Shown in pieces: positions 11,686-23,637 of a stretch of DNA of 35,978 nt. Each line of letters begins with the position of its first letter. The first letter of the stretch is position 1. The DNA is taken from contig CAIRCM010000131.1 in the NCBI GenBank assembly GCA_903877125.1, positions 1-35,978 of the forward strand. Reading direction: 5' to 3'. The translations under genes were made by a program, and so were the position numbers. Below the pieces are notes generated by a model, which did no database searches, had not been told where the DNA came from, and worked only from the letters and a program-made list of their open reading frames with translations. The stretch is from an uncultured Acetobacteraceae bacterium (GTDB taxonomy: Bacteria > Pseudomonadota > Alphaproteobacteria > Acetobacterales > Acetobacteraceae).

Positions 11686-12654
11686 TTATACGATTTGATT
11701 CTGCAATACACTTTCACCGCGCCAAAGACGTTCCAGGTTGTCCAGCAGGATCGCGTTGACGTTCTTTTCGTACTGCGTGGTTTCGCCACCGGTATGCGGC
11801 GTGATCAGCACGTTCGGCATCGCCCAAAGCGGACACGTTGCCTCCGGCGGTTCGGGATCGGTGCAATCCAGCGCCGCGCCGGCAATCATACCGGCTTGGA
11901 GTGCCGCAATCAGCGCCGCTTCATCCACGCAACCACCGCGCGCGACGTTCACCAGATAGGCCGATTCGCGCATTTTCCTCAGTGCTACGGCGTCGATCAC
12001 ATGCTTTGTCTCCGGCGTCAGCGGGCAGGTCAGCGCCACGAAATCCGCCCGCGGCAAATGCGCCCCCAGTTCGGACAGCGCGTGCACGCTGTCGGCATCC
12101 CCCGATCCGGCTGCAGGATCGCGCCGGAACCCGATCACCGTCATGTCGAACGCCTTGGCCAGCCGGGCCAGGCGCCCACCAATGCGCCCGAGGCCAACGA
12201 CAATCAGCGTCTTGCCCCCAAGCTCGTCCTCCCGCTGGGTCAGATCGCCGATCATGCCGCGCCAGACACGCCGGGCCTGATTGTCGCGTGCCTCCGGCAG
12301 CCGGCGGGCCAGAGCGAGAATAAGACCGATCGCATGTTCGGCGACCGCCCGGGCATTCACCCCGGCCGCGCTGGCCAACCGGATGCCGGCCGCCGCCAGA
12401 GCCACCTTGTCGTACTGGTCGGTGCCCGAGCTGATGGATTGAATGAACGAAAGCCTCGTCGCCGATTGGATCAGACCATTGTGCCACATCCCGGACGCCA
12501 CGATCACATCGGCTTCCGCGGCGCGCCGGTCCAACTCGGCGCGATCCCGCACCTCGAAACTCGCGATCCCGGTGTTCAGCGTGTCCCAGCACGCTTTCAT
12601 CTGGTAGGCGGCATGGGCAAAGCAGATGCTGAGTTGGTCGCGGGGCGGGATCAT
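11686..12654 (-). CDS. D-isomer-specific 2-hydroxyacid dehydrogenase
   Basis: A 322-residue NAD(P)-dependent dehydrogenase interconverting 2-keto acids and D-2-hydroxy acids (glyoxylate/hydroxypyruvate reductase-like). The Rossmann loop GLGRIG lies at 154-159. The catalytic triad of the family is intact: R239 in VNVARGG, E268 in DPEPPE, and H287 in TPHTGG. There is no ACT or other regulatory domain, so it is not full-length SerA. AGAAAGGAAC lies about 9 bases before the ATG. It is divergent from the aminotransferase-led operon across a 97-base gap. It lies about 40 bases upstream of the adenosine deaminase gene on the same strand, possibly co-transcribed with it. Glyoxylate made by GlcDEF would be a plausible substrate, but this is inference. 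Confidence 0.88.
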   Translation of the reverse strand: MIPPRDQLSICFAHAAYQMKACWDTLNTGIASFEVRDRAELDRRAAEADVIVASGMWHNGLIQSATRLSFIQSISSGTDQYDKVALAAAGIRLASAAGVNARAVAEHAIGLILALARRLPEARDNQARRVWRGMIGDLTQREDELGGKTLIVVGLGRIGGRLARLAKAFDMTVIGFRRDPAAGSGDADSVHALSELGAHLPRADFVALTCPLTPETKHVIDAVALRKMRESAYLVNVARGGCVDEAALIAALQAGMIAGAALDCTDPEPPEATCPLWAMPNVLITPHTGGETTQYEKNVNAILLDNLERLWRGESVLQNQIV

Positions 12655-12751
12655 AAGCGGGTTCCTTTCTGGTGCACCCAGTGTGGGGCAGTTTCCCGTA
12701 CGCGCGAAAGTGGCTTAACCTCCGCAGCAATCATACCAGAGGAAACCGGCC

Positions 12752-13984
12752 ATGGACGCGGTGAATTTCGACTTCGGCAAGCTTTACAGCGACGGTCTCC
12801 CGGACCCTGCCGCCAAATGGGCGCCATTCCCGCCCTACTATTTTGTCGGCGGTAATAACGACCCCGAGGAAATCCCCATCGAGGGGCTGATCGAAGCCGC
12901 CGCGTCCGTCCTGCGCCGGGAAGGCTCCAAGCTCGCGATCTACAATCTCGGCCTCGGCCCGCAGGGCTACCCCGGCCTGCGCCAGTTCGTCGCCGACAAG
13001 GCCAACCGCCATCGCGGCTTCAAGATCGGCATCGACGACATCCTGATCACCACCGGATCCGGCCAGGGCCTCGACATGATCAGCAAGCTGCTGGTCAATC
13101 CCGGCGATGTCGTGCTGTGCGAAGAATATTGCTACCAGGGCGCGATCAACCGCTTCCGCAAGATCGGCGCGAAGGTCGAGGGCATGAAGCTCGATCAAGA
13201 CGGCATCGTGATCGACGCGCTGGCCGAGCAACTGGCGGCGATGAGGGCCAAGGGCGTGCAGCCCAAGTTCATCTATACGATCCCGACGATTCAGAACCCC
13301 ACCGCCTCCATCCTCCCACTCGACCGACGCCACGCGCTGATCGCCCTCGCTCGGCAATACAACGTCGCGATTTTCGAGGACGAATGCTACGCTGATTTGT
13401 TGTGGGAGGGGATCGAAGCGCCGCCCGCCCTCTACGCGCTCGACCCCGGCTGCGTCATCCACCTTGGCTCCTTCTCCAAATCTCTCGCCCCCGCGCTGCG
13501 GCTTGGCTACATCGTCGCGGAGTGGGAAATCATGCGCCGCCTGCTGCCCCTGAAGGGCGACAGCGGCACCGGCGCCTTGGATCAGATGGTGGTCGCCGAA
13601 TACTTCTCGAAGAACTTCGACAAACACCTGAACCACCTCAACGGCGTCCTGCACGACAAGCTGAAATGCATGGTCGAGGCCGTGCACCGCGAATTCGGCA
13701 CTGCCGCCGAGTGTTGGGCACCGAAGGGCGGCATCTTCCTTTGGATCAAACTGCCGGACGGGATCGACACCCGCAAGCTCCTGAAACCGGCCGCCGCGCG
13801 TGGCATTGTGTTCAACGAAGGACCGGCCTGGGCCGTCAGCCCGGACAATTCCACGTCCCATCTGCGGCTCTGCTTCGCGATGCCCAGCAAAAAGGTCATC
13901 GAGGAAGGCGTCGCCGCCTTTGCCCAGGTTTGCTATGAGGAAACCGGCATTCCCGTGCGAAGCGCCAACGTTCAACGCGGCTGA
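12752..13984 (+). CDS. PLP-dependent aminotransferase class I/II (2-aminoadipate-transaminase-like)
   Basis: A 410-residue fold-type I aminotransferase related to LysN/2-aminoadipate transaminases and to the catalytic domain of MocR regulators, but without their DNA-binding domain. PLP-site residues are visible: the phosphate-binding region TTGSGQGLD (101-109), N182 in PTIQNPTAS, D210 in FEDECYADL, and the Schiff-base lysine K243 in GSFSKSLAPALRLGY. The last segment also holds the arginine that contacts PLP phosphate. The reaction is amino-group transfer between an amino acid and a 2-oxo acid; the specific amino donor is unknown. The ATG follows GAGGAAA. It opens a ten-gene plus-strand run, with 17 bases to the next gene, so it probably deaminates the first substrate of that pathway. 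Confidence 0.86.
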   Translation: MDAVNFDFGKLYSDGLPDPAAKWAPFPPYYFVGGNNDPEEIPIEGLIEAAASVLRREGSKLAIYNLGLGPQGYPGLRQFVADKANRHRGFKIGIDDILITTGSGQGLDMISKLLVNPGDVVLCEEYCYQGAINRFRKIGAKVEGMKLDQDGIVIDALAEQLAAMRAKGVQPKFIYTIPTIQNPTASILPLDRRHALIALARQYNVAIFEDECYADLLWEGIEAPPALYALDPGCVIHLGSFSKSLAPALRLGYIVAEWEIMRRLLPLKGDSGTGALDQMVVAEYFSKNFDKHLNHLNGVLHDKLKCMVEAVHREFGTAAECWAPKGGIFLWIKLPDGIDTRKLLKPAAARGIVFNEGPAWAVSPDNSTSHLRLCFAMPSKKVIEEGVAAFAQVCYEETGIPVRSANVQRG

Positions 13985-14001
13985 CAGAAGGAGTTCGTCG
14001 G

Positions 14002-14886
14002 ATGATGAACGCAATGAAAGGCAACAATGGTCCCCGCTACCGCCACGTCGTGGATGAATCCGCGCCGTACGAGACCATCGCCGTCGACAAGCTGACCCCG
14101 ATCATCGGTGCGGAAATCGGCGGCGTCGATCTTTCCGGGTCGATCTCCAACCGGCAGATGGACGAAATCCATCGCGCGCTGGCGGAGAACTCGGTCATTT
14201 TCTTCCGCGATCAGCATCTGTCGCCCGAACAGCATCTGGCTTTCGGCCGCAATTTCGGGGACCTCCACGTCCATCCCGCGGCGCCGCACGCGCCGGGGCT
14301 GGAAGAGTTGATGATCATCCACGCCGACAAGGACAGCCCCCGTGCCAACGGTGAAGGTTGGCACAGCGATGTGTCCTGCGATCCGGAACCGCCGATGGGC
14401 TCGATCCTGTATATCAAGACCTGCCCGCCGAAAGGTGGCGACACGCTCTTCGCCAGCATGTACGCGGCCTATGAGGCCTTGTCGGACCGCATGAAAGCCT
14501 ATCTGGATGGCATGATCGCGGTCCACGACGGGGAAGAAACCTATCGCGGCACCTATAAGAACGTGGGGATGGCCGACAAGCCAGTCTACCCCCGAGCGGA
14601 GCATCCGGTCGTGCGCACCCACCCGGTGACCGGCAGGAAGGCGCTCTACGTCAACCGTGGCTTCACCCGCAATTTGGTCGGCGTGCCGCCCGACGAAAGC
14701 TACGCCATTCTCAACTATCTGTTCACCCATTCGGAAAGCCCATTGTTCCAATGCCGCTTCCGCTGGACCGAGAATGCGGTTGCCTTCTGGGATAATCGTT
14801 GCGTTCAGCACCGCGCGATGTGGGACTACTGGCCGCATACACGATCCGGCTTTCGCGTGACCGTCGCGGGCGACAAGCCCTACTGA
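14002..14886 (+). CDS. TauD/TfdA-family 2-oxoglutarate-dependent dioxygenase
   Basis: A 294-residue Fe(II)/2-oxoglutarate dioxygenase. The facial triad is clear: H121 and D123 in [13 protein letters not shown], and H270 in [13 protein letters not shown]. Arginines R281 and R285 in the same segment are candidates for the 2-oxoglutarate carboxylate contact. TauD hydroxylates the carbon bearing the sulfonate of taurine, releasing sulfite and an aldehyde. Relatives attack phenoxyacetates, alkyl sulfates and other acids, so the family alone does not fix the substrate. Here the gene lies in one operon with sulfur-oxidation genes, which makes release of an inorganic sulfur species attractive but unproven. 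The start at 14002 follows AGAAGGAG; a second Met codon follows directly. Confidence 0.87.
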
Positions 14887-14918
14887 TCGCGCCACCGCCG
14901 CCGTTGGGGAGAATGAAG

Positions 14919-15398
14919 ATGGCAAAACTGAAACTCAGCATCAACGGCACGGCGCACGATGTCGACGTCGATCCCGATACGCCCTTGCTGTGGGTCATCC
15001 GCGAGTGGGTCGGTCTGACCGGCACCAAATACGGTTGCGGCATCGCCCAATGCGGCGCCTGCACCGTGCACCTGGATGGCGCCGCCACAAGGTCCTGCCA
15101 AATCCCCGCCGGTTCGGTCGGAGAAGCCAAAATCACCACGATCGAGGGTCTTTCGCCGGACGGCATGAGCCACCCGATCCAGGTCGCCTGGTTGCAACAT
15201 GACGTGCCGCAATGCGGCTACTGCCAGTCCGGCCAGATCATGGCCTCGGCCGCGCTGCTGGCGGCCAAGCCGCATCCGACGGACGCCGATATCGCCGACA
15301 TGGTCACGAATATCTGTCGATGTGGAACCTACCAGCGGATCAAGGCGGCGATCCACACCGCGGCGGAACTCACCGTTCCCGCCACTGGCAAAGCGTAG
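14919..15398 (+). CDS. (2Fe-2S) subunit of a molybdenum hydroxylase (IorA-like)
   Basis: A 159-residue small subunit of the xanthine dehydrogenase / isoquinoline 1-oxidoreductase family. It carries two 2Fe-2S clusters that take electrons from the molybdenum centre. The N-terminal plant-ferredoxin-type cluster uses C40, C45, C48 and C60 ([15 protein letters not shown]). The C-terminal helical-bundle cluster uses C99, C102, C133 and C135 (QCGYCQSG and [10 protein letters not shown]). No FAD subunit is present, as in IorAB and other two-subunit enzymes that pass electrons to cytochrome c. The ATG at 14919 is preferred over the one at 14913 because the GGGGAG site would be too close to the latter. 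The molybdopterin subunit gene follows after 9 bases. Confidence 0.9.
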
Positions 15399-15407
15399 GA
15401 GCGGACC

Positions 15408-17561
15408 ATGGCACAGACACTCAGCCGCCGTTTCTTCCTTACCGCCTCGGCCGTGGCCGGCGGCGGTTTCTCCCTGGGCTGGTCGCTGCCAAAGGCCCAG
15501 GCCGCCGAAAATGCTCCCTTCGAACTCGGCATCTGGGCGACCATCGCCGCCGATGACACGGTCACGATCCGCATCGCTCGTTCCGAGATGGGGCAGGGGA
15601 CCATGACCGGCCTCGCCCAACTCGTCGCCGACGAACTCGATGCCGACTGGCGCTTCGTGAAGACCGAATTCGTCACGCCGGAAGCCAACCTCGCCGCCAA
15701 GCGCGCTTGGGGCGACATGTCGACCGGCGGCAGCCGTGGCATCCGAGCCTCGGTTGACTATGTGCGCAAGGGTGGCGCGGCGGCGCGGGCCATGCTGGTG
15801 CAGGCCGGGGCGGCGAAGTGGGGGGTGCCTGCTGGCGAATGTGTCACCGCGTTGAACGTTGTGACCCACACGCCCAGCGGCCGTCGCCTGCGCTACGGGG
15901 AACTCGCCGCTGACGCCGCCAAGCTCACCCCGCCGACCGATGTGAAGGTGAAAACCCCAGCGGAGTGGACGCTGATCGGACGAGGCGTCAAACGCCTCGA
16001 CACCGCCGAGAAGCTCAGCGGCAAGCTGACTTACGCCATCGACGTGCAATTGCCGAACATGCTGAACGCCGCGATCGCGCAGTGCCCGGTGTTCGGCGGC
16101 AAGCTGAAATCCTTCGACGCCGCCAAGATCCAGCAGATGCCGGGCGTGCGGCACGTCGTCGCGGTCGACGACAACGCCGTCGCCGTCGTCGCGGATAAAT
16201 GGTTTCAGGCCAAAACCGCTTTGGCCGCACTTCCGATCGTCTGGGACGAAGGCCCCAATGCCAAGGTCGACAGCCAACAGATCGACGCTCACCTCACCGC
16301 GGGCTTGGATGCCAAGGAAGCCGGTCTGGCGCAGGAACATGGCGACATCGTCGCCGGACTGGCCGGCGCGGCGACGAAGATCGAGGCGGTCTACAGCATG
16401 CCCTTCCAGCACCACGCCACGTTGGAACCGATGAACTGCACCGCCCAGTTCGCCGACGGCAAGGTGGAGGTCTGGGTGTCCAGCCAGAACGGCGATGCCT
16501 CCTTGGCCGCAGCAGCCGAAGCTGGCGGCGTCAAACTGGCTGACGTGAAGGTGCACAAGCACATCCTCGGCGGCGGGTTCGGTCGGCGCGGCCAGCAGGA
16601 TCCGGTGAAACAGGCGGTCATCATCGCCAAGCAGGTGCCCGGACGCCCAATCAAGCTAATCTGGACCCGCGAGGAGGACATGACCCATGGGTTCTACCGT
16701 CCCATCGCCAAAGCGAAGATGACGGCCGGCCTGGATGCGAACGGAAACCTGACGACCTTGCACGCCCGCCTGTCCGCGCAGTCCATCGCGGCATATCTGG
16801 CGCCGCAGCGCATGGAAAACGGGGTCGATATGATCGCGTTCCAGGGCTGGACCAAGGACGAGTTCGGCTACATGGCCATCCCCAACCTGCGGATCGACGA
16901 CGCCGTACGGAATACCCATGTGCCCGTCGGGTTCTGGCGCGGTGTGAACACCAACCAGAACGCGATTTTCATGGAATGCTTCATCGATGAGCTCGCGCAC
17001 GCCACCGGCAAAGACCCGCTGGATTTTCGTCGGTCCCTTATGACCAAAAACCCCAAGCATCTGGCCGTACTGAACGCGGTGGCTGAAAAAGCCGGCTGGG
17101 GCACGCCGCTGCCGAAGGGCGTTCATCGCGGCATCGCGCAGAATGCCGGGTTCGGCAGCTATGTCGCCGCGGTGGCCGAGGTTTCGGTGTCGCCGAAAGG
17201 TGAACTCGCGATCCATCGCATCGTCGCCGGCACTGATTGCGGCTACGCCGTCAACCCCGAACAGATCGCCGCGCAGGTGGAAGGTTCTTTCGTCTACGGC
17301 CTCAGTGCCCTGCTCACCAGTGAGATAACCATCGACAAGGGCCGCGTGGTTCAGACCAATTTCGACAGCTACGAGGTTATGAAACTCGCCGCCATGCCGA
17401 AGGTCGAAACGGTGATCGTGCCTTCCGGCGGGTTCTGGGGCGGGGTCGGCGAGCCAACCATCGCCGTGGCGCCGCCCGCGGTGCTGAACGCCATCTTCGC
17501 CGCGACCGGCAAGCGCGTCCGCACTTTGCCGCTCAGTCACCAGGATCTGTCGCACGCATGA
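15408..17561 (+). CDS. Molybdopterin-binding subunit of an IorB-like molybdenum hydroxylase
   Basis: A 717-residue large subunit of an aldehyde/isoquinoline-type molybdenum hydroxylase. It begins with a Tat signal (SRRFFLTASAVAGGG, residues 6-20), so the IorAB dimer is folded in the cytoplasm and exported. Molybdopterin-contact segments include MGQGTMTGLAQLVADEL (about 63-79) and GGGFGRRGQQDP. The catalytic glutamate is E682 in GGVGEPTIA. Enzymes of this family insert water-derived oxygen next to a heteroatom of an N-heterocycle, or oxidise an aldehyde to an acid. The substrate is not readable. The stop overlaps the ATG of a small cytochrome c by four bases, making that protein a candidate electron acceptor. 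Confidence 0.88.
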   Translation: MAQTLSRRFFLTASAVAGGGFSLGWSLPKAQAAENAPFELGIWATIAADDTVTIRIARSEMGQGTMTGLAQLVADELDADWRFVKTEFVTPEANLAAKRAWGDMSTGGSRGIRASVDYVRKGGAAARAMLVQAGAAKWGVPAGECVTALNVVTHTPSGRRLRYGELAADAAKLTPPTDVKVKTPAEWTLIGRGVKRLDTAEKLSGKLTYAIDVQLPNMLNAAIAQCPVFGGKLKSFDAAKIQQMPGVRHVVAVDDNAVAVVADKWFQAKTALAALPIVWDEGPNAKVDSQQIDAHLTAGLDAKEAGLAQEHGDIVAGLAGAATKIEAVYSMPFQHHATLEPMNCTAQFADGKVEVWVSSQNGDASLAAAAEAGGVKLADVKVHKHILGGGFGRRGQQDPVKQAVIIAKQVPGRPIKLIWTREEDMTHGFYRPIAKAKMTAGLDANGNLTTLHARLSAQSIAAYLAPQRMENGVDMIAFQGWTKDEFGYMAIPNLRIDDAVRNTHVPVGFWRGVNTNQNAIFMECFIDELAHATGKDPLDFRRSLMTKNPKHLAVLNAVAEKAGWGTPLPKGVHRGIAQNAGFGSYVAAVAEVSVSPKGELAIHRIVAGTDCGYAVNPEQIAAQVEGSFVYGLSALLTSEITIDKGRVVQTNFDSYEVMKLAAMPKVETVIVPSGGFWGGVGEPTIAVAPPAVLNAIFAATGKRVRTLPLSHQDLSHA

Positions 17562-17818
17562 TCGCGCGCTTGACCCTGGCGGCGGTCCTGCTCTGCGCGG
17601 CAGCCCCGCCGCCGGGGGCGAGCAGTTGTTCCGGGTGCCACGGCCCGGCCGCTCAGCTGCCTGTTCTGGCCGGGCGTCCGGTGGCGGACACCGTCGCGGC
17701 GATGGACGCCTTCCGCGCTGGCACCAGACCCGCGACCGTGATGGACCGGATCGCCAAAGGCTTCACCCCGGCGGAGACCCAGGCCATCGCCGCCTGGTGG
17801 GCGGAGGCGACGCCATGA
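17558..17818 (+). CDS. Monohaem cytochrome c, FccA-like
   Basis: An 86-residue exported cytochrome with a signal peptide of about 21 residues and one haem site, CSGCH (C24, C27, H28). The likely axial Met is M62 in TVMDRIAKGFT. The segment LPVLAGRP plus RIAKGFTPAETQAIAAWWA resembles the cytochrome subunit of flavocytochrome c sulfide dehydrogenase (SoxE/FccA). The gene overlaps iorB upstream and the flavoprotein gene downstream by four bases each. It could therefore carry electrons from the Mo-hydroxylase, from FccB, or from both. The classical Allochromatium FccA is a larger dihaem protein; this is the short monohaem form. Confidence 0.82.
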   Translation: MIARLTLAAVLLCAAAPPPGASSCSGCHGPAAQLPVLAGRPVADTVAAMDAFRAGTRPATVMDRIAKGFTPAETQAIAAWWAEATP

Positions 17819-19068
17819 CCGCCCTGACCAGACGTGCTGTCGTCGCGACGGGACTGGCCGCGCCGTTCGTCGCCAGAGCCGAGACAGGCCCCGGTGTCAT
17901 CGTCGTCGGCGGCGGGTTCGGCGGTGCCTCCGTAGCGCGCGCGCTGCGTCGCTACGGTGAAAATATGGACATCACCCTAGTCGAACCGAACGAAACCTTC
18001 ATCGCCTGTCCCTTCAGCAATCTGGTGGTGGCCGGCGTACGAACCATCGACTCGCAGCAATTCGGATACAAACAGCTTGTCGCCGACGGGATTCGCGTCA
18101 TCCACGCCGCAGTCATCGGAGTCGATCCAACCCGGCGGCGCGTGACACTGGCATCGGGCGAGAGCCGTCCTTACGATCGGCTGATCCTTTCCCCCGGTAT
18201 CGACATCGCCTGGGGTGCGCTGCCCGGCTATGACGAGGCGGCCAGTACCCGCATGCCGCATGCCTGGAAGGCCGGCGCCCAAACCTTGCTTCTGCGCAAG
18301 CAACTTGAGGCGATGCCGGACGGCGGCACGGTCGTGATGTCCGTGCCGCCCAACCCGTACCGCTGCCCGCCCGGGCCATACGAACGGGCCAGCCTGATCG
18401 CCTGGTACCTGCGCGGCGCGAAGCCGAAGTCGAAACTGATCGTCCTCGACTCCAAAGACGCCTTCTCCAAACAGAAACTCTTTCAGGCCGGCTGGGCGCG
18501 CATGTATCCCAATATCCTGAAATGGGTATCCCAGTCCGACGGGGGAACGGTGACCGGCGTCGAACCGGCGACACTGACATTCCGTACTGATTTCGAGAGC
18601 TACAAAGCCGATGTGGCCAACGTAATCCCGCCGCAGAAAGCCGGGCACATCGCCGCCGTCGCGGGGGTCGCGGACAAGACCGGATGGTGTCCGGTCGATC
18701 CCATCACCTTCGAGTCCCGCCTCATCCCCGGCATCCATGTGATCGGCGATGCCGCCATTGCCGGGGCCATGCCCAAATCCGCTTTTGCCGCCAACGCTCA
18801 GGCGAAGGTTTGCGCACTCGCCGTGGCGCGCTTGCTGGTGGGTGCCACGCCCGACGAGCCGCGGCTGATCAATACCTGCTATTCTCTGGTGGCCCAGGGC
18901 TACGGCATATCGGTCGGCGCGGTCTATCGGCCTGTCAACGGTCTGCTGGCCGAGGTGCCGGGTTCCGCCGGCACCAGCCCGTTGGATGCGCCGGATCAAT
19001 TTCGCTACCAGGAAGCCCAAAATGCCGATGCCTGGTTCGATCGTATCACGCACGAAGCGTTCGGTTAG
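17815..19068 (+). CDS. fccB: Flavocytochrome c sulfide dehydrogenase flavoprotein subunit, FccB/SoxF-like
   Basis: A 417-residue exported FAD protein that would oxidise sulfide or a persulfide and pass electrons to the co-encoded cytochrome. A twin-arginine leader (LTRRAVVATGLAAPFVARA) precedes the FAD loop VVGGGFGGASVARAL (30-44). The two redox-active cysteines known from FccB are both present: C184 in NPYRCPPGPYER and C292 in TGWCPVD. Another cysteine, C65, lies in TFIACPFSN. The C-terminal FAD-contact segment HVIGDAAIAGAMPKSAFAANAQAK is also typical. The ATG overlaps the cytochrome stop by four bases. In Paracoccus-type clusters this gene (soxF) follows soxCDE; here it precedes soxX. Confidence 0.88.
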   Translation: MTALTRRAVVATGLAAPFVARAETGPGVIVVGGGFGGASVARALRRYGENMDITLVEPNETFIACPFSNLVVAGVRTIDSQQFGYKQLVADGIRVIHAAVIGVDPTRRRVTLASGESRPYDRLILSPGIDIAWGALPGYDEAASTRMPHAWKAGAQTLLLRKQLEAMPDGGTVVMSVPPNPYRCPPGPYERASLIAWYLRGAKPKSKLIVLDSKDAFSKQKLFQAGWARMYPNILKWVSQSDGGTVTGVEPATLTFRTDFESYKADVANVIPPQKAGHIAAVAGVADKTGWCPVDPITFESRLIPGIHVIGDAAIAGAMPKSAFAANAQAKVCALAVARLLVGATPDEPRLINTCYSLVAQGYGISVGAVYRPVNGLLAEVPGSAGTSPLDAPDQFRYQEAQNADAWFDRITHEAFG

Positions 19069-19417
19069 CCTGGCCATGGCCGCGCTGTTGACCATGGCGG
19101 CCGGCGATGCCTCGCAGGGACGGGCCATCGTGATGAACCGGCAATTGAGCGCCTGCCTGCTGTGCCACGCCGGCCCGTTTCCCGATCCCAACCTACAGGG
19201 AAACCTGGCGCCGTCGTTGGCCGGCGTCGGGTCACGGATGACGTCCGAAGAATTGCGGTTGCGGCTCACGACCCCGCCGCCGGACAGCATCATGCCGTCC
19301 TATTCGACGACCACCGGCCGCCGCCAGATCGGCCTGCGGTGGGAGGGGAAGCCCATCCTCACGCCGCAACAGATCGAGGACGTCGTCGCATTCCTGACGA
19401 CACTCAAGACGCCATGA
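19022..19417 (+). CDS. soxX: Sulfur-oxidation c-type cytochrome SoxX
   Basis: A 131-residue periplasmic monohaem cytochrome that pairs with SoxA. The complex joins a sulfur substrate to the cysteine of SoxY. A signal peptide with a KR-rich n-region spans about 1-30. The haem site is CLLCH (C45, C48, H49), and M91 in IMPSY is the expected axial methionine. The end, ILTPQQIEDVVAFLTTLK, is the usual SoxX terminal helix. The ATG at 19022 is chosen because AGGAAG lies 7 bases upstream. It gives a 47-base overlap with fccB in another frame. The alternative ATG at 19076 would leave too short a leader. The stop overlaps soxY by four bases. Confidence 0.87.
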   Translation: MPMPGSIVSRTKRSVSLAMAALLTMAAGDASQGRAIVMNRQLSACLLCHAGPFPDPNLQGNLAPSLAGVGSRMTSEELRLRLTTPPPDSIMPSYSTTTGRRQIGLRWEGKPILTPQQIEDVVAFLTTLKTP

Positions 19418-19833
19418 AGCGGCGCCTGCTTCTGGCCGGATCGGCGGCATTGCTCGCAATTCGGCCCGCCCAGGCAACGCCGGTGCAGGTTGCCGCACTG
19501 ATCCGTGACCTGGTCGGCGGTGCGCCGCTGACCCAAGGGAACATGAAACTCGATCTCCCTGTCATGGTGGAAAACGGCAACACCGTCAGTGTGACCGTGT
19601 CGGTCGACGCGCAACCCGGCGCAGTGCACTCGCTGCACCTCTTCGCCGAGGGCAATCCACTGCCCGAGGTCATGCATTTTTCCTTTGGGCCGCGTGCCGG
19701 CCTGCCCCGGGTCCAGACGCGCATACGGCTGGCAACATCGCAGACCGTGATCGCCATCGCCCAAATGCGGGACGGCACGTTCCGGCAGGATAGTGTGGAC
19801 CTGCTGGTCACCCTCGCCGCTTGCATTGACTAA
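19414..19833 (+). CDS. soxY: Thiosulfate-oxidation carrier protein SoxY (variant C-terminus)
   Basis: A 139-residue exported protein that forms the SoxYZ carrier; pathway intermediates ride on its C-terminal cysteine. The leader (MKRRLLLAGSAALLAIRPAQA) is followed by the SoxY core: LDLPVMVENGNTVSVTVSV (47-65) and TRIRLATSQTVIAIAQMRDG (102-121). Canonical SoxY ends in GGCGG; here the end is LVTLAACID, with the cysteine (C137) kept but the glycine arm replaced and the last two residues Ile-Asp. Cysteine retention argues for an active carrier, while the altered arm suggests different docking. It is flanked by soxX (4-base overlap) and soxZ (10-base gap). Confidence 0.84.
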   Translation: MKRRLLLAGSAALLAIRPAQATPVQVAALIRDLVGGAPLTQGNMKLDLPVMVENGNTVSVTVSVDAQPGAVHSLHLFAEGNPLPEVMHFSFGPRAGLPRVQTRIRLATSQTVIAIAQMRDGTFRQDSVDLLVTLAACID

Positions 19834-19843
19834 GGGGAATGAG

Positions 19844-20164
19844 ATGGTCCGCGTGCTGCTGAACGCACCCAAGCAAGTACCCAAAGGTCAACCGTTCAAC
19901 GTGAAGCTGCTGATCTCGCACCCCATGGAAAGCGGCCAACGTCGCGATGCCATGGGGATGGCCATCCCCCGGCACATCATCAACCAAATCGTCTGCAAGC
20001 TGGACGAGGAAGAAGTCTTCCGCATGAACCTCTTCCCCGCCATCGCCGCCAATCCCTTCCTGGTATTTTCCGCGACCGCCGAGCAAAGCGGCACGCTGAC
20101 CATCACCTTCACCGACGACAATGGTGTCGAGCAGACCGAAACAACCCCGGTGGAGGTCGTGTGA
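19844..20164 (+). CDS. soxZ: Thiosulfate-oxidation carrier complex protein SoxZ
   Basis: A 106-residue immunoglobulin-like partner of SoxY, without its own signal peptide, as is normal because it is co-exported with SoxY. Recognisable SoxZ segments are KGQPFNVKLLISHPMESGQR (14-33), PRHIINQIVCKLDEEEVF (42-59) and the ANPFLVFSATAEQSGTLTITFTDD strand region. AAGGGGAA precedes the ATG. The stop is overlapped by the GTG start of soxA (GTGA). It stabilises SoxY and presents the carrier cysteine to SoxXA and other partners. Confidence 0.9.
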   Translation: MVRVLLNAPKQVPKGQPFNVKLLISHPMESGQRRDAMGMAIPRHIINQIVCKLDEEEVFRMNLFPAIAANPFLVFSATAEQSGTLTITFTDDNGVEQTETTPVEVV

Positions 20165-20895
20165 AGCCCGTCCTGCTGCTGTTGGCGCTGCTCACAGCTG
20201 CTGCCGCGCCGCGATCGGGCTATGACGATGCCAGCCCGGAAACCCGCGCGATGCAGGACGACGACGATGCCAATCCCGGCTTTCTGTGGGTTCGGGAAGG
20301 CGAGGCACAATGGTCGAAACCCGCCGGGCCCGACGGCAAAAGCTGCGCCTCCTGCCACCACGACGCCACCATTTCCATGCGCGGTGTCGCTGCTCGGTAT
20401 CCCCTGATCGACACGGTGTCGGAGCAGCCGATGACGCTTGACCAACGGATTGCTCAGTGCCGCGAGGAACGCCAGCGCGCCGATCCCTTGCCGCCCGAAA
20501 GCGAGGCCGCGCTGGGCCTGAGTGCCTATGTCGGCCTGCAGTCGCGGGGAATGCCGCTGCACGTGAGGGCGGATAGCCCCTTCGTCGCCGCGGGGCGGCG
20601 GTTGTTCGAAACCCGCTTGGGCCAACTGAACCTGTCCTGCGCCCAATGCCATGACGAACGGGCCGGCATGAAGCTGGGTGGCGCCACCATTCCACAGGGC
20701 CATCCCAATGGCTATCCGGAGTACCGGCTGGAATGGCAGGCAATGGGCTCGCTATATCGTCGCCTGCGCGATTGCATGACGGGCGTGCGGGCGGAGCCCT
20801 TCGCCCCGGAGTCGCTGCAAGCGGCGGAGCTTGCGCTGTATCTCGCGGTCCGGGCCGAGGGGCTAAAGGTCGAAACGCCCGCGGTCAGGCCTTGA
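20161..20895 (+). CDS. soxA: Sulfur-oxidation dihaem cytochrome SoxA
   Basis: A 244-residue periplasmic dihaem cytochrome, catalytic partner of SoxX, which oxidatively conjugates thiosulfate to SoxY. It has a leader (about 1-19) and two haem sites, CASCH (C62, C65, H66) and CAQCH (C160, C163, H164). C205 in RRLRDCMTG is the active-site cysteine that becomes a persulfide haem ligand in characterised SoxA. C100 is a candidate cysteinate ligand of the first haem. The start is GTG overlapping the soxZ stop. This is the last gene of the run: valS ends 4 bases downstream on the other strand, so soxB, which commonly follows soxA, is absent here. Confidence 0.9.
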   Translation: MKPVLLLLALLTAAAAPRSGYDDASPETRAMQDDDDANPGFLWVREGEAQWSKPAGPDGKSCASCHHDATISMRGVAARYPLIDTVSEQPMTLDQRIAQCREERQRADPLPPESEAALGLSAYVGLQSRGMPLHVRADSPFVAAGRRLFETRLGQLNLSCAQCHDERAGMKLGGATIPQGHPNGYPEYRLEWQAMGSLYRRLRDCMTGVRAEPFAPESLQAAELALYLAVRAEGLKVETPAVRP

Positions 20896-20899
20896 TCGG

Positions 20900-23578
20900 C
20901 TACCCGATACGCGCCATCGCCGCTTCCAGCCGCTCCACCTCGGCCAGATAGGCGGCGACCCGAGCTCGATTTTCCTCCACGATTTCCTCCGGTGCCCGGG
21001 CAACGAAATCGGCGTTGGACAGCTTCTGCTGGAACTTCTTCGCCTCTGACGCGGCCTTGTCGCGTTCCTTGCCCAGGCGCGCGCGTTCCACGGCGATATC
21101 GATCATTCCTTCCAGCGGCAGCACCACCGTGGCCTCGTCCAGCACCGCCTGCGCCGAGCCCTTCGGCAATGCACCGTCCACCGGCCGGACTTCCGATGCG
21201 CGTGCCATGCGGCGGATTGGCTCGATCCAGCGTTCGGCGCGCGCCAGCGCCTCGGCCGAGGCGTCTTTCAGCAGCACCGCGCCTGGCACACTGGGCGGCA
21301 CGTTCATTTCGCTGCGCACCGACCGGATCAGCCCGATGAGGCGTACCACCCAGTCCAACTCAGCACGCGCCTCGGCCGCGCCGGTCACGGGCACGGCGAT
21401 GGGCCAGGTTTCCTTGATCAGGCTGCATTCGGCCCCGTAGCCGAAACGGTCCCACAGCTCCTCGGTCACATAGGGGATCGCTGGGTGCAGCATTTTCAGA
21501 ATGATCCCGAGGACATAGGCTGCCGTCGCCCGTACCTCCGCCGCGGCAACGGGATCGGCGTTCGGCGCCAAAGCCGGTTTGGCGAATTCCAGGAACCAGT
21601 CGCAGAACGTGTTCCAGACGAACCGGTAGCCGGCCCCGGCGTATTCGTCAAAACGATACGCTTCCAATGCTGCCGTCGCTTCCGCCACCGCGGTGTTGGC
21701 GGCATCGAGAAGCCAGCGCGTCAGCGGCAGCGTCGCCTTGGCCGGATCGAAGGACGGATCGACCGCGACCCCGTTGATTTCGCAAAACCGAGCGGCATTC
21801 CACAGTTTGGTGATGAAGCTGCGGTAGTCCTGCACCCGGTTCGCGCCCAGCTTCACGTCCCGGCCCAACCCGGTCAGCGAGCAGATTGTGAACCGAAGCG
21901 CATCGGTCCCGAAGCTGTCGATCAGTTCCAGGGGATCGATGATATTCCCCTTCGACTTCGACATTTTCTGGCCTTTTTCGTCCCGCACCAGGCCATGGAT
22001 GTAGATCGTCTTGAACGGCACATCGCCCATGAAATGGATGCCCATCATCATCATCCGGGCCACCCAGAAGAAAATGATGTCGAAACCGGTGACCAGCACG
22101 TCGCCGGGGTAATAGCGATCGAGTTCCGTCGTTTTCTCCGGCCAGCCCAGCGTCGAAAACGGCCACAGGCCGGAGCTGAACCAGGTATCCAGAACGTCCT
22201 CGTCCTGCGTCACCGGCGTTTCGGTACCGTAGTGCGTCCGTGCCAGCGCGGCGGCTTCCTCGGCGGTCTTGGCAACGAAGACCTCGCCGTCGGGCCCGTA
22301 CCAGGCGGGAATGCGATGCCCCCACCAAAGCTGGCGCGAAATGCACCAGGGCTGGATATCGCGCATCCAGGCGAAGAAGGTGTTCTCCCATTGCTTTGGC
22401 ACGAACACGGTCTTGCCGGTCTCCACCGCTTCGATCGCCGGTTGGGCGAGCACTTTGGCGTTGCAATACCATTGTGTCGTCAGTAGCGGCTCGATCGGCA
22501 CGCCCCCGCGGTCGCCATGCGGCACCTGGTTCTTGTGCGGCTCGATCTTCACCAGCAGTTCCAGGCGGTCCAGTTCGGCCACGATCGCCTTCCGCGCGGC
22601 GAAACGATCCATCCCGTCCAGCGAATGCACGAACGAATCCGGCGCCAGATCGCCGGCGATCTCCGCCAGGGTCACCCGAGCCTGCTTGTCCAGTATGGAG
22701 GGCATGGGCAGATCGTGGCGTTTACCGACCTCGAAGTCGTTGAAATCGTGCGCGGGCGTGATCTTCACCGCCCCCGTGCCCTTTTCCGGGTCGGCATAGT
22801 CGTCGCCCACGATCGGAATGCGCCGCCCGACCAGCGGCAGGACCGCGAATTTGCCGATCAGCCCGGCCAAGGTCGGATGCGCCGGATTCACCGCGACCGC
22901 GGTATCGCCCAGCATCGTCTCCGGCCTGGTCGTCGCCACCGTGATAAACTGCCCTGGCGCGCCCTCGATCGGATAGTTCAGATACCAAAGCGACCCGTTG
23001 ATCTCCCGGTTCTCGACCTCCAGGTCCGAAATCGCGGTCAGCAGCTTCGGATCCCAGTTCACCAGCCGGCGGTCGCGGTAGATCAGGCCCTGGCGGTAGA
23101 GGGTCACGAACACCTCCCGCACCGCCGCGGACAATCCATCGTCCATGGTGAAGCGTTCCCGCGGCCAGTCCAGCGAGGCACCGAGGCGCCGCAACTGCCG
23201 GGTGATCGTGCCGCCGGATTCAGCCTTCCACTGCCAAACCCGTTCCAGGAACTTCTCCCGGCCCATGTCACGGCGGTCGATGCCTTCCGCGGCAAGCAGC
23301 CGTTCCACCACCATCTGCGTGGCGATCCCCGCATGATCGGTGCCGGGCTGCCACAACGCATCCCGCCCGGTCATCCGCCGCCAGCGGATCAGCGTATCCT
23401 GCACTGTGAACGTCAGCGCATGTCCCATATGCAGGCTGCCGGTGACGTTCGGCGGTGGGATCATGATGGTGAACGGGTCCGCATTGGACCGCGGATCGCA
23501 GGCAAACGCCCCTTCCTTTTCCCATCCCTGGTAAAGGCGGGCCTCGGTTTCGGCGGGGGTAAAGGTCTTGTCGAGCAT
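20900..23578 (-). CDS. valS: Valyl-tRNA synthetase
   Basis: An 892-residue class I aminoacyl-tRNA synthetase that charges tRNA-Val. The HIGH-type motif is HMGH at 50-53 in PPPNVTGSLHMGHAL, and KMSKS is at 538-542. The editing domain lies at about 205-345 and includes TTRPETMLGDTAVAV and GTGAVKITPAHDFNDFEVG. It hydrolyses mischarged threonyl-tRNA. The anticodon-binding domain follows at about 640-790. A C-terminal charged coiled coil (about 825-892) closes the protein. The ATG at 23578 begins MLDKTFTP, which matches the family start; a longer frame upstream is not needed. The convergent soxA stop is only four bases away. Confidence 0.96.
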   Translation of the reverse strand: MLDKTFTPAETEARLYQGWEKEGAFACDPRSNADPFTIMIPPPNVTGSLHMGHALTFTVQDTLIRWRRMTGRDALWQPGTDHAGIATQMVVERLLAAEGIDRRDMGREKFLERVWQWKAESGGTITRQLRRLGASLDWPRERFTMDDGLSAAVREVFVTLYRQGLIYRDRRLVNWDPKLLTAISDLEVENREINGSLWYLNYPIEGAPGQFITVATTRPETMLGDTAVAVNPAHPTLAGLIGKFAVLPLVGRRIPIVGDDYADPEKGTGAVKITPAHDFNDFEVGKRHDLPMPSILDKQARVTLAEIAGDLAPDSFVHSLDGMDRFAARKAIVAELDRLELLVKIEPHKNQVPHGDRGGVPIEPLLTTQWYCNAKVLAQPAIEAVETGKTVFVPKQWENTFFAWMRDIQPWCISRQLWWGHRIPAWYGPDGEVFVAKTAEEAAALARTHYGTETPVTQDEDVLDTWFSSGLWPFSTLGWPEKTTELDRYYPGDVLVTGFDIIFFWVARMMMMGIHFMGDVPFKTIYIHGLVRDEKGQKMSKSKGNIIDPLELIDSFGTDALRFTICSLTGLGRDVKLGANRVQDYRSFITKLWNAARFCEINGVAVDPSFDPAKATLPLTRWLLDAANTAVAEATAALEAYRFDEYAGAGYRFVWNTFCDWFLEFAKPALAPNADPVAAAEVRATAAYVLGIILKMLHPAIPYVTEELWDRFGYGAECSLIKETWPIAVPVTGAAEARAELDWVVRLIGLIRSVRSEMNVPPSVPGAVLLKDASAEALARAERWIEPIRRMARASEVRPVDGALPKGSAQAVLDEATVVLPLEGMIDIAVERARLGKERDKAASEAKKFQQKLSNADFVARAPEEIVEENRARVAAYLAEVERLEAAMARIG

Positions 23579-23637
23579 CTCGGTCTCTCCCGCGGCCTCG
23601 GGTCGATCACCGCGGGAGGCCGCCAATGGACAAAAAA

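Follow-up and report, generated by a model that had tools for sequence, protein, structure and literature searches.

A molybdenum (Mo) hydroxylase of the IorAB type and a set of Sox proteins make up one gene unit, IorAB-FccAB-SoxXYZA, a copy of which was analyzed in a stretch of DNA from an uncultured Acetobacteraceae bacterium (assembly GCA_903877125.1, contig CAIRCM010000131.1, positions 1 to 35,978; this whole stretch of 35,978 nucleotides is called the window). The union of Mo hydroxylase and Sox proteins is real and widespread, and represents a new variant of the Sox kind. The window is a contig of a 5.15-Mb draft genome (the home genome; 231 contigs, 97.94% complete). Ten plus-strand open reading frames at 12752-20895 consist of two modules: an aminotransferase-TauD pair and the eight-gene IorAB-FccAB-SoxXYZA unit, a widely shared, exported periplasmic unit that is functionally unstudied and is gained or lost as a block. 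At somewhat less than even confidence, the unit is read here as an exported, SoxB-independent Sox-carrier variant built around the Mo hydroxylase and working in a cycle on a tethered substrate, with the aminotransferase-TauD pair separate from it. The features are listed below; export signals, Tat-like or Sec-like, were judged by eye.

12752..13984, plus strand: class I/II aminotransferase, 410 amino acids, module 1 (PF00155; PF12897 slightly under its cut-off); no export signal
14002..14886, plus strand: TauD-family Fe(II)/2-oxoglutarate dioxygenase, 294 amino acids, module 1 (PF02668, 238 bits; nearest structure E. coli TauD); no export signal
14887..14912: junction of the two modules, 26 bases (32 with the alternative IorA start at 14919), located with sister genomes G028 and G009
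14913..15398, plus strand: IorA-type [2Fe-2S] subunit, 161 amino acids (Fer2, Fer2_2)
15408..17561, plus strand: IorB-type molybdenum hydroxylase large subunit, 717 amino acids (MoCoBD_1/2); Tat-like twin-arginine N-terminus
17558..17818, plus strand: FccA-like small monohaem cytochrome c, 86 amino acids, motif CSGCH (weak PF13442, 22.8 bits against a cut-off of 27); Sec-like leader
17815..19068, plus strand: FccB/SoxF-like flavoprotein, 417 amino acids (FCSD_central, FCSD-flav_bind); Tat-like N-terminus
19028..19417, plus strand: SoxX, monohaem cytochrome c (start at 19028 with signal peptide, or at 19076; TIGR04485, 59.2 bits against a cut-off of 61 with the 19076 start); Sec-like leader
19414..19833, plus strand: SoxY paralogue of the 'AACIE arm' kind (TIGR04487, 152.8 bits, cut-off 172); Tat-like leader
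19816..19830, plus strand: C-terminal carrier arm of SoxY, AACID (canonical GGCGG), from arm comparison
19844..20164, plus strand: SoxZ (PF08770; TIGR04490, 91.1 bits, cut-off 76)
20161..20895, plus strand: SoxA, dihaem, catalytic Cys205 present (TIGR04484, 211 bits, cut-off 110); Sec-like leader
20900..23626, minus strand: valS, marking the outer edge of the inserted or lost unit (same downstream neighbour in loci L063, L193 and L194)

The first-pass annotation had described these ten reading frames as one closely spaced operon, tentatively for the breakdown of an amino- and sulfur-containing organic compound. All ten are present at these coordinates, and their assignment to Aminotran_1_2, TauD, Fer2/Fer2_2, MoCoBD_1/2, the FCSD flavoprotein family, SoxX, SoxY, SoxZ and SoxA holds, the cytochrome c match being weak and under its cut-off. 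No gap exceeds 32 bases, the widest being that between TauD and IorA. Four junctions (IorB/FccA, FccA/FccB, SoxX/SoxY and SoxZ/SoxA) overlap by 4 bases each; a fifth, FccB/SoxX, overlaps by 41 bases provided that SoxX starts with the ATG at 19028, and not at all with the start at 19076. Consensus scans of 12600-21100 revealed no sigma-70-like promoter (1.2 expected in shuffles) and no excess of terminator-like sites (6 versus 6.6 in shuffles), which is compatible with a single transcript but does not prove it. The gene run is not due to chance, because eight of the ten genes keep their order across many genera. Among solved structures, the closest to the aminotransferase are aminotransferases of the multiple-substrate and aminoadipate types, the closest to IorB is the aldehyde dehydrogenase large subunit 8gy3_C, and the closest to FccB are 5n1t, 3vrd and 1fcd.

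Conservation of the gene order was followed with a SoxY-alignment scan of one genome per species (84,980 species), which gave 406 loci; the best 80, ranked by similarity to the window SoxY, were kept, and some of their genomes overlap a second set of 98 relatives. IorB lies in 69 of these best 80 loci, and the other 11 are cut short, with less than 2 kb before soxY. The order IorA-IorB-FccA-FccB-SoxX-SoxY-SoxZ-SoxA, complete or truncated at a contig end, is found not only in the home genus but also in further genera of its family and beyond the family, with Acetobacteraceae, Stella, Telmatospirillum, Limobrevibacterium and many Bradyrhizobium among the carriers. Thus the order is conserved for eight genes, as is the proposed union of IorAB with FccAB/SoxXYZA, but not for the aminotransferase and TauD. 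Pairwise distances of IorA, IorB, SoxX, SoxZ and SoxA correlate at 0.90-0.96, as expected for genes inherited together. An IorAB-SoxXYZA form with the arm SACTE and no FccAB is present in four genomes of 1.7-2.1 Mb from another class (L238, L239, L241, L242), whereas other members of their family in the same draw have genomes of 6-8 Mb. In G068 (L058), IorB is in two pieces, soxX follows soxA, and FccAB is not in the locus.

The association was also approached from the side of the Mo hydroxylase. The 98 relatives were searched with TIGR04487, which matched in 44 of them, and 33 of their neighborhoods were fetched and mapped with the proteins of the window. IorB-like proteins of 55% identity or more are encoded in 17 of the 98 relatives (two copies in G052), together with the split one of G068 at 52-55%; the next full-length IorB-like proteins reach 48% and below, and a 205-residue contig-end piece in G015 (52%) was not counted. 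IorB of this kind is found in 18 of the 19 relatives with an inspected AAC (17) or GAC (2) arm on SoxY, and in none of the other 79, whose weak SoxY matches were not all inspected for the arm (Fisher p 9e-19, uncorrected for relatedness).

A further draw with an IorB alignment over 398 genomes of the phylum matched in 41. Twenty loci were fetched, and eight more strong loci of genus g75 (marked as Bradyrhizobium-like by where one member falls in the tree) were left outside these 20. Sixteen of the fetched loci score 973 bits or more; 12 of them are linked to SoxXA (11 also to SoxYZ) and four are unlinked (L240, L243, L244, L245), and none of the four weaker loci is linked to Sox. A midpoint-rooted tree was built from 54 IorB proteins; its 37 Sox-linked rows all fall into one group (support 100/100, branch 0.34), which also holds six unlinked rows, while the other 11 unlinked rows lie outside. 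Among the six, G032 has its Sox half elsewhere, G052, G400 and G489 also have a linked copy, and G295 and G407 have neither. Conservation was counted over the rows remaining after removal of short and identical ones. The seven Fe-S cluster Cys of IorA are invariant (80/80 rows) and the Mo-site Glu682 of IorB is kept in 79/79; the window thus has the [2Fe-2S] ligands and Mo-site Glu expected of the xanthine-oxidase family (IorAB type). On the Sox side, both CxxCH motifs and the catalytic Cys205 of SoxA are kept in 93/93 rows, and the haem Cys/His and Met of SoxX in 94/94.

Genes flanking the unit, inspected for up to about 10 kb per side, vary between genera and yield no substrate clue. A major facilitator superfamily transporter lies upstream in 38 of the best 80 loci (with the DHA2 efflux type as its closest match, 206.9 bits, below the cut-off of 230.2), and TctC, DctP, ABC, FkbM methyltransferase and 4HBT genes occur elsewhere. 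A DsrE/DsrF-like protein (L093 13006-13593; 23.4 bits, cut-off 22.7) is encoded about 1.5 kb after soxA, and its cluster recurs in five Bradyrhizobium loci (L093, L106, L114, L123, L146); it is a possible sulfur-transfer partner. In G004 (L067; L074 11561-16140 is from the same genome) and G027 (L065), a second, different Mo-hydroxylase operon starts soon after soxA, with an IorA-like protein of about 41%.

In L233 and L236, soxA is followed by a small protein with a LysR-type helix-turn-helix and then by an XdhC-MobA fusion, beyond which lie MoaA in L233 and a TauE/SafE sulfite exporter in L236; XdhC is also near the unlinked IorAB of L240. The XdhC and MoaA neighbors are in keeping with a Mo hydroxylase being produced and put to use. 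They also bear on the idea that SoxXYZA, with FccB, serve the Mo enzyme itself, as a periplasmic sulfur carrier through which the Mo center regains its terminal sulfido ligand after export. Such a role would not need SoxB, and SoxYZ-like carriers do accompany pyrroloquinoline quinone (PQQ) dehydrogenases, in locus L048 and in the ped cluster of Pseudomonas putida (PMC12997753). The 11 IorB rows outside the Sox-linked group nevertheless manage without adjacent Sox genes, the XdhC genes of L233 and L236 adjoin the unit itself, and genome G247, which has IorAB and SoxXA, has no SoxYZ to act as carrier. Sulfuration of Mo enzymes is normally cytoplasmic and carried out via XdhC, which also counts against this role, and we regard it as distinctly improbable.

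The aminotransferase and TauD form a cytoplasmic, genus-level gene pair that stands beside the IorAB-FccAB-SoxXYZA unit in a few species only. A TauD ortholog (80% identity or more) is present in 29 of 33 same-genus genomes; in these 29 short loci it is adjoined by the aminotransferase in 16 and by an intact IorA in four. The Sox half with an AAC arm is found in 11 of the 33 genomes, and in four of these 11 (home, G001, G003, G004) IorA adjoins TauD. The adjacency is undecided in G016 (IorAB not found) and G027 (contig ends). In sister genome G028, aminotransferase, TauD and valS lie at the same chromosomal site with the unit cleanly absent, and in G009 (L194 6163-6747) pieces of iorA and of the 3' part of iorB, disrupted by a stop codon and deletions, remain between TauD and valS. 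The G009 remnant is a relic of a lost unit. From these two sites it follows that the pair was kept while the unit was lost or, in G028, perhaps never gained.

A single catabolic pathway of all ten genes, as proposed in the first-pass annotation, would agree with the tight spacing and with an order kept in four genomes, all of one genus. TauD, and often the aminotransferase, persist without the unit, even at the identical site, and in five same-genus genomes (G007, G010, G014, G021, G032) TauD and the unit lie at separate places. A ten-gene pathway is thus very unlikely, and it was rejected because the pair is separable from the unit. Co-occurrence of the catabolic and sox halves in this strain only, which had been named in advance as refuting the proposal, is nearly the case for the aminotransferase and TauD and is not the case for IorAB. 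As for the pair itself, His70, Asn95, His99, Asp101, His255 and Arg270 of E. coli TauD, which we take to be its iron ligands and sulfonate contacts, are aligned identically, and Ala occupies the position of Tyr73, presumably the amine contact. The NCBIfam taurine dioxygenase model gives 288.3 bits, under its cut-off of 313. Because the iron and sulfonate residues are kept and the amine-contact Tyr73 is replaced, a sulfonate other than taurine is a plausible substrate of the TauD module.

The carrier protein of the unit is a variant. The window SoxY scores 152.8 bits with TIGR04487 (cut-off 172) versus 89.4 with the true-SoxY model (cut-off 125), and it ends in AACID, that is AAC and an acidic residue as in the AACIE-arm kind (pattern AAC[x][DE]), not in GGCGG. 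TIGR04487 is exceeded in four of the 98 relatives and in four of 12 further genomes, while the window stays below. The two residues before the arm Cys in the best 80 loci are AA (76), GA (3) or PA (1). In the 33 relative loci and the window, the arms sort by their neighbors: eight GGCGG arms each have an over-cut-off SoxB close by on the contig, four GGCL/GGCI arms accompany FccAB-SoxYZ, and the AAC/GAC arms accompany IorAB, except in L064, L066 and L071, where soxXYZA or FccB end at the contig end. The SoxYZ of L048, L049 and L051 is of another kind, fused and with no Cys arm at its end. The four FccAB-SoxYZ loci (L042, L044, L045, L047; arms GGCLG/GGCLS/GGCIT) show no SoxX, SoxA or SoxB beside them and resemble a unit for the uptake of sulfide or thiosulfate; three of them have, ahead of these genes, a membrane protein from a single cluster, whose L042 copy, the only one scanned, is YedE/TsuA-like and under the cut-offs.

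The home genome yields no SoxB over cut-off (best model match 41 bits, cut-off 550) and no SoxC over cut-off (145 bits, cut-off 420), so the lack of SoxB/SoxCD beside the unit holds for the whole draft (97.9% complete) and not for the window only. Among the 19 relatives with AAC/GAC arms, SoxB exceeds the cut-off in four (G007, G036, G042, G068) and is absent over cut-off in 15, four of which are under 90% complete. Of 15 named unit genomes, five yield no SoxB over cut-off (Telmatospirillum, Stella, TMPK1, Limobrevibacterium, palsa_888), nor do unit genomes G431, G417, G183 and G328; in G431 and G328, each a single contig carrying the whole unit, there is no SoxB match at all. SoxB was found in six of the 12 further genomes. 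Where both are present, SoxB and the unit are on different contigs or far apart (G007, G036, G042, G068, G490, G489, G400, G258, G310). Because no SoxB over cut-off is found in the home genome, complete genomes carry the unit without SoxB, and the SoxY arm is a variant, thiosulfate oxidation to sulfate by the unit is unlikely. The earlier proposal that its Sox proteins oxidize sulfur to sulfate is therefore not upheld, and a canonical or truncated Sox system was rejected on the same two grounds, the absence of SoxB and the variant arm.

The presence of a Mo enzyme in a Sox operon, in a home genome without over-cut-off SoxC, raises the question whether IorAB replaces SoxCD and oxidizes sulfane sulfur on the SoxY arm, for which its water-derived oxygen chemistry would be suited. 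SoxC over cut-off is, however, encoded elsewhere in eight of the 25 genome handles with the unit (G071 and G105 among the handles are one genome, also the one named TMPK1), and the SoxB that would release the product was not found in many genomes. We know of no SoxCD-like activity in the xanthine-oxidase family, and consider such a replacement improbable.

FccAB is a frequent but not a constant member of the unit. FccB is present in 75 of the best 80 loci; of the other five, L080, L084 and L120 lack it although their IorB can be seen, and L086 and L089 are truncated. An FccA-like match is present in 28 of the 80. FccAB is not in L062, L068, L120, L230, L238, L239, L241 and L242, and as an essential component it was rejected on account of such copies. 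The first redox Cys of FccB is kept in 76/76 rows; the second position is Ala in 40, Cys in 32 and Thr in 4, is Ala314 in the window, and is also not Cys in 5n1t. The window protein thus has the FCSD domains of flavocytochrome c and lacks the redox-active Cys pair, a criterion that we take from the Allochromatium vinosum enzyme.

With FccB belonging to a sulfide dehydrogenase family and IorB nearest to the aldehyde dehydrogenase 8gy3, the two halves might also each take a separate piece of a single organosulfur compound, with no tether to the arm: another enzyme would cleave the compound, IorAB would oxidize the free aldehyde or heterocycle, and FccAB/SoxXYZA would take the inorganic sulfur. 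The TauE/SafE sulfite exporter after one copy of the unit agrees with this. Against it, no cleavage enzyme shared across genera was seen in the inspected flanks, FccAB is often absent, no sulfate release is expected without SoxB, and the aminotransferase and TauD lie outside the unit. We consider action on two separate pieces rather unlikely.

The preferred reading, a SoxB-independent carrier variant, starts from the known cycle. SoxAX forms a disulfide between thiosulfate and the cysteine of SoxYZ (PMC4423706); the standard cycle has the product oxidized by SoxCD and hydrolyzed by SoxB (PMC5371076). Without SoxB, the arm-bound product must leave another way. Xanthine-oxidase-family enzymes normally oxidize carbon. 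Since this is the family of the regular partner and SoxB is missing, the simplest joint reading is that the load on the arm carries carbon. SoxXA would oxidatively couple a thiol-bearing, probably organic, sulfur compound to the Cys of the SoxY AAC arm. IorAB might then oxidize the carbon of the arm-bound substrate, or of an aldehyde freed from it, with water as the oxygen source. FccB, where present, could handle the remaining sulfane or reset SoxYZ, and electrons may exit via SoxX/SoxA, FccA or a soluble cytochrome c. In its most specific form, carrier-based organosulfur oxidation in which an organic thiol is attached by SoxXA to a dedicated SoxYZ, forming a mixed disulfide, and the tethered carbon is oxidized by the periplasmic Mo hydroxylase, the scheme is possible but doubtful. 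If true, SoxYZ would play a part in organic chemistry much like that of acyl carrier protein, both across Alphaproteobacteria, Bradyrhizobium among them, and in a small-genome genus of another class.

Several observations weigh against the carrier reading. To our knowledge, no xanthine-oxidase-family enzyme acts on a carrier-bound substrate. In G247 (L235), SoxX and SoxA come after IorAB, SoxYZ is missing from its place between the two, and the SoxY model has no match anywhere in the genome; SoxYZ is thus not indispensable. This argues against the carrier being strictly required and gives scope to the rival explanations. G295 and G407 carry IorAB of the Sox-linked group without Sox genes beside it, and their only SoxY-model matches are one of 41 bits and one of 98 bits about 1.4 kb from a SoxB. 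G032 has IorAB and SoxXYZA at separate places, and G016 has the Sox half with no IorB match (84% complete, contig edge). SoxB is encoded elsewhere in 10 of the 15 named unit genomes (eight Bradyrhizobium, Rhizobiales 64-17 and Astr-EGSB) and in five of the nine further genomes that carry the unit with SoxYZ, so that exchange with a canonical Sox set is possible in these genomes. The best 80 of the 406 SoxY loci are mostly from Bradyrhizobium and Acetobacteraceae/Rhodospirillales.

No description of an IorAB-FccAB-SoxXYZA unit was found in the accessible parts of the open-licence literature searched. Genome surveys tend to label organisms as thiosulfate or sulfide oxidizers from soxA/X/Y/Z or fccB. 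Such labels could be wrong for the many genomes found here in which these genes sit in a unit without its own SoxB and with a variant SoxY arm. In one SoxY survey, sequences without 'GGC' were dropped before analysis (PMC11237559); this filter would exclude most of the present SoxY branch, in which 76 of the best 80 arms are AAC. In two other papers, soxY2 of B. diazoefficiens, which may or may not be the SoxY of the unit, is described as not essential for thiosulfate oxidation (PMC5748708), and a mutant of a peanut Bradyrhizobium in soxA, be it that of the unit or another, as forming more nodules (PMC7324677). In named strains of Bradyrhizobium, Stella and Telmatospirillum, the unit represents a defined, testable gene set for the role of SoxYZ-like carriers beside oxidoreductases of organic compounds.

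Among known systems, canonical Sox (SoxXYZABCD) shares with the unit SoxXA with both haem sites and the catalytic Cys, SoxYZ with a C-terminal Cys, and the order X-Y-Z-A. The unit differs from it in the arm, AACID versus GGCGG, in a home genome without over-cut-off SoxB/SoxC, and in its regular partner, a xanthine-oxidase-family Mo hydroxylase; truncated Sox systems also lack SoxC. The window SoxY is of the kind described by NCBIfam TIGR04487, 'SoxY-related AACIE arm protein', whose cut-off is exceeded by the unit SoxY of B. japonicum, Telmatospirillum, Stella and the small-genome genus and not by those of the window and others; the model names a protein, but neither a function nor a gene unit. 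Likewise of the SoxYZ type, and next to a periplasmic oxidoreductase that acts on organic compounds, is the quinoprotein-dehydrogenase-associated carrier TIGR04557 (in the ped cluster of P. putida, PP_2677); it differs in being a fused SoxYZ with a PQQ dehydrogenase and in having no SoxX/SoxA match in three mapped loci. One of its kind (247 bits) was observed near a PQQ alcohol dehydrogenase in a same-genus sister genome (L048 4785-8764, the only one scanned of three loci with shared gene clusters, L048, L049 and L051). The role of the fused carrier in the ped cluster is described as unsettled (PMC12997753). With the flavocytochrome c sulfide dehydrogenases SoxEF/FccAB, the unit shares the FccB domains and the invariant first redox Cys, and differs by Ala in place of the second redox Cys in the window and by FccA or both subunits often not being found in the unit. 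Finally, IorAB and the two-subunit Mo aldehyde dehydrogenase 8gy3 agree with the Mo hydroxylase of the unit in domain make-up, Fe-S ligands, Mo-site Glu and Tat-like leader; the latter differs in having no multihaem cytochrome subunit in its unit and in forming a Sox-tied group of its own.

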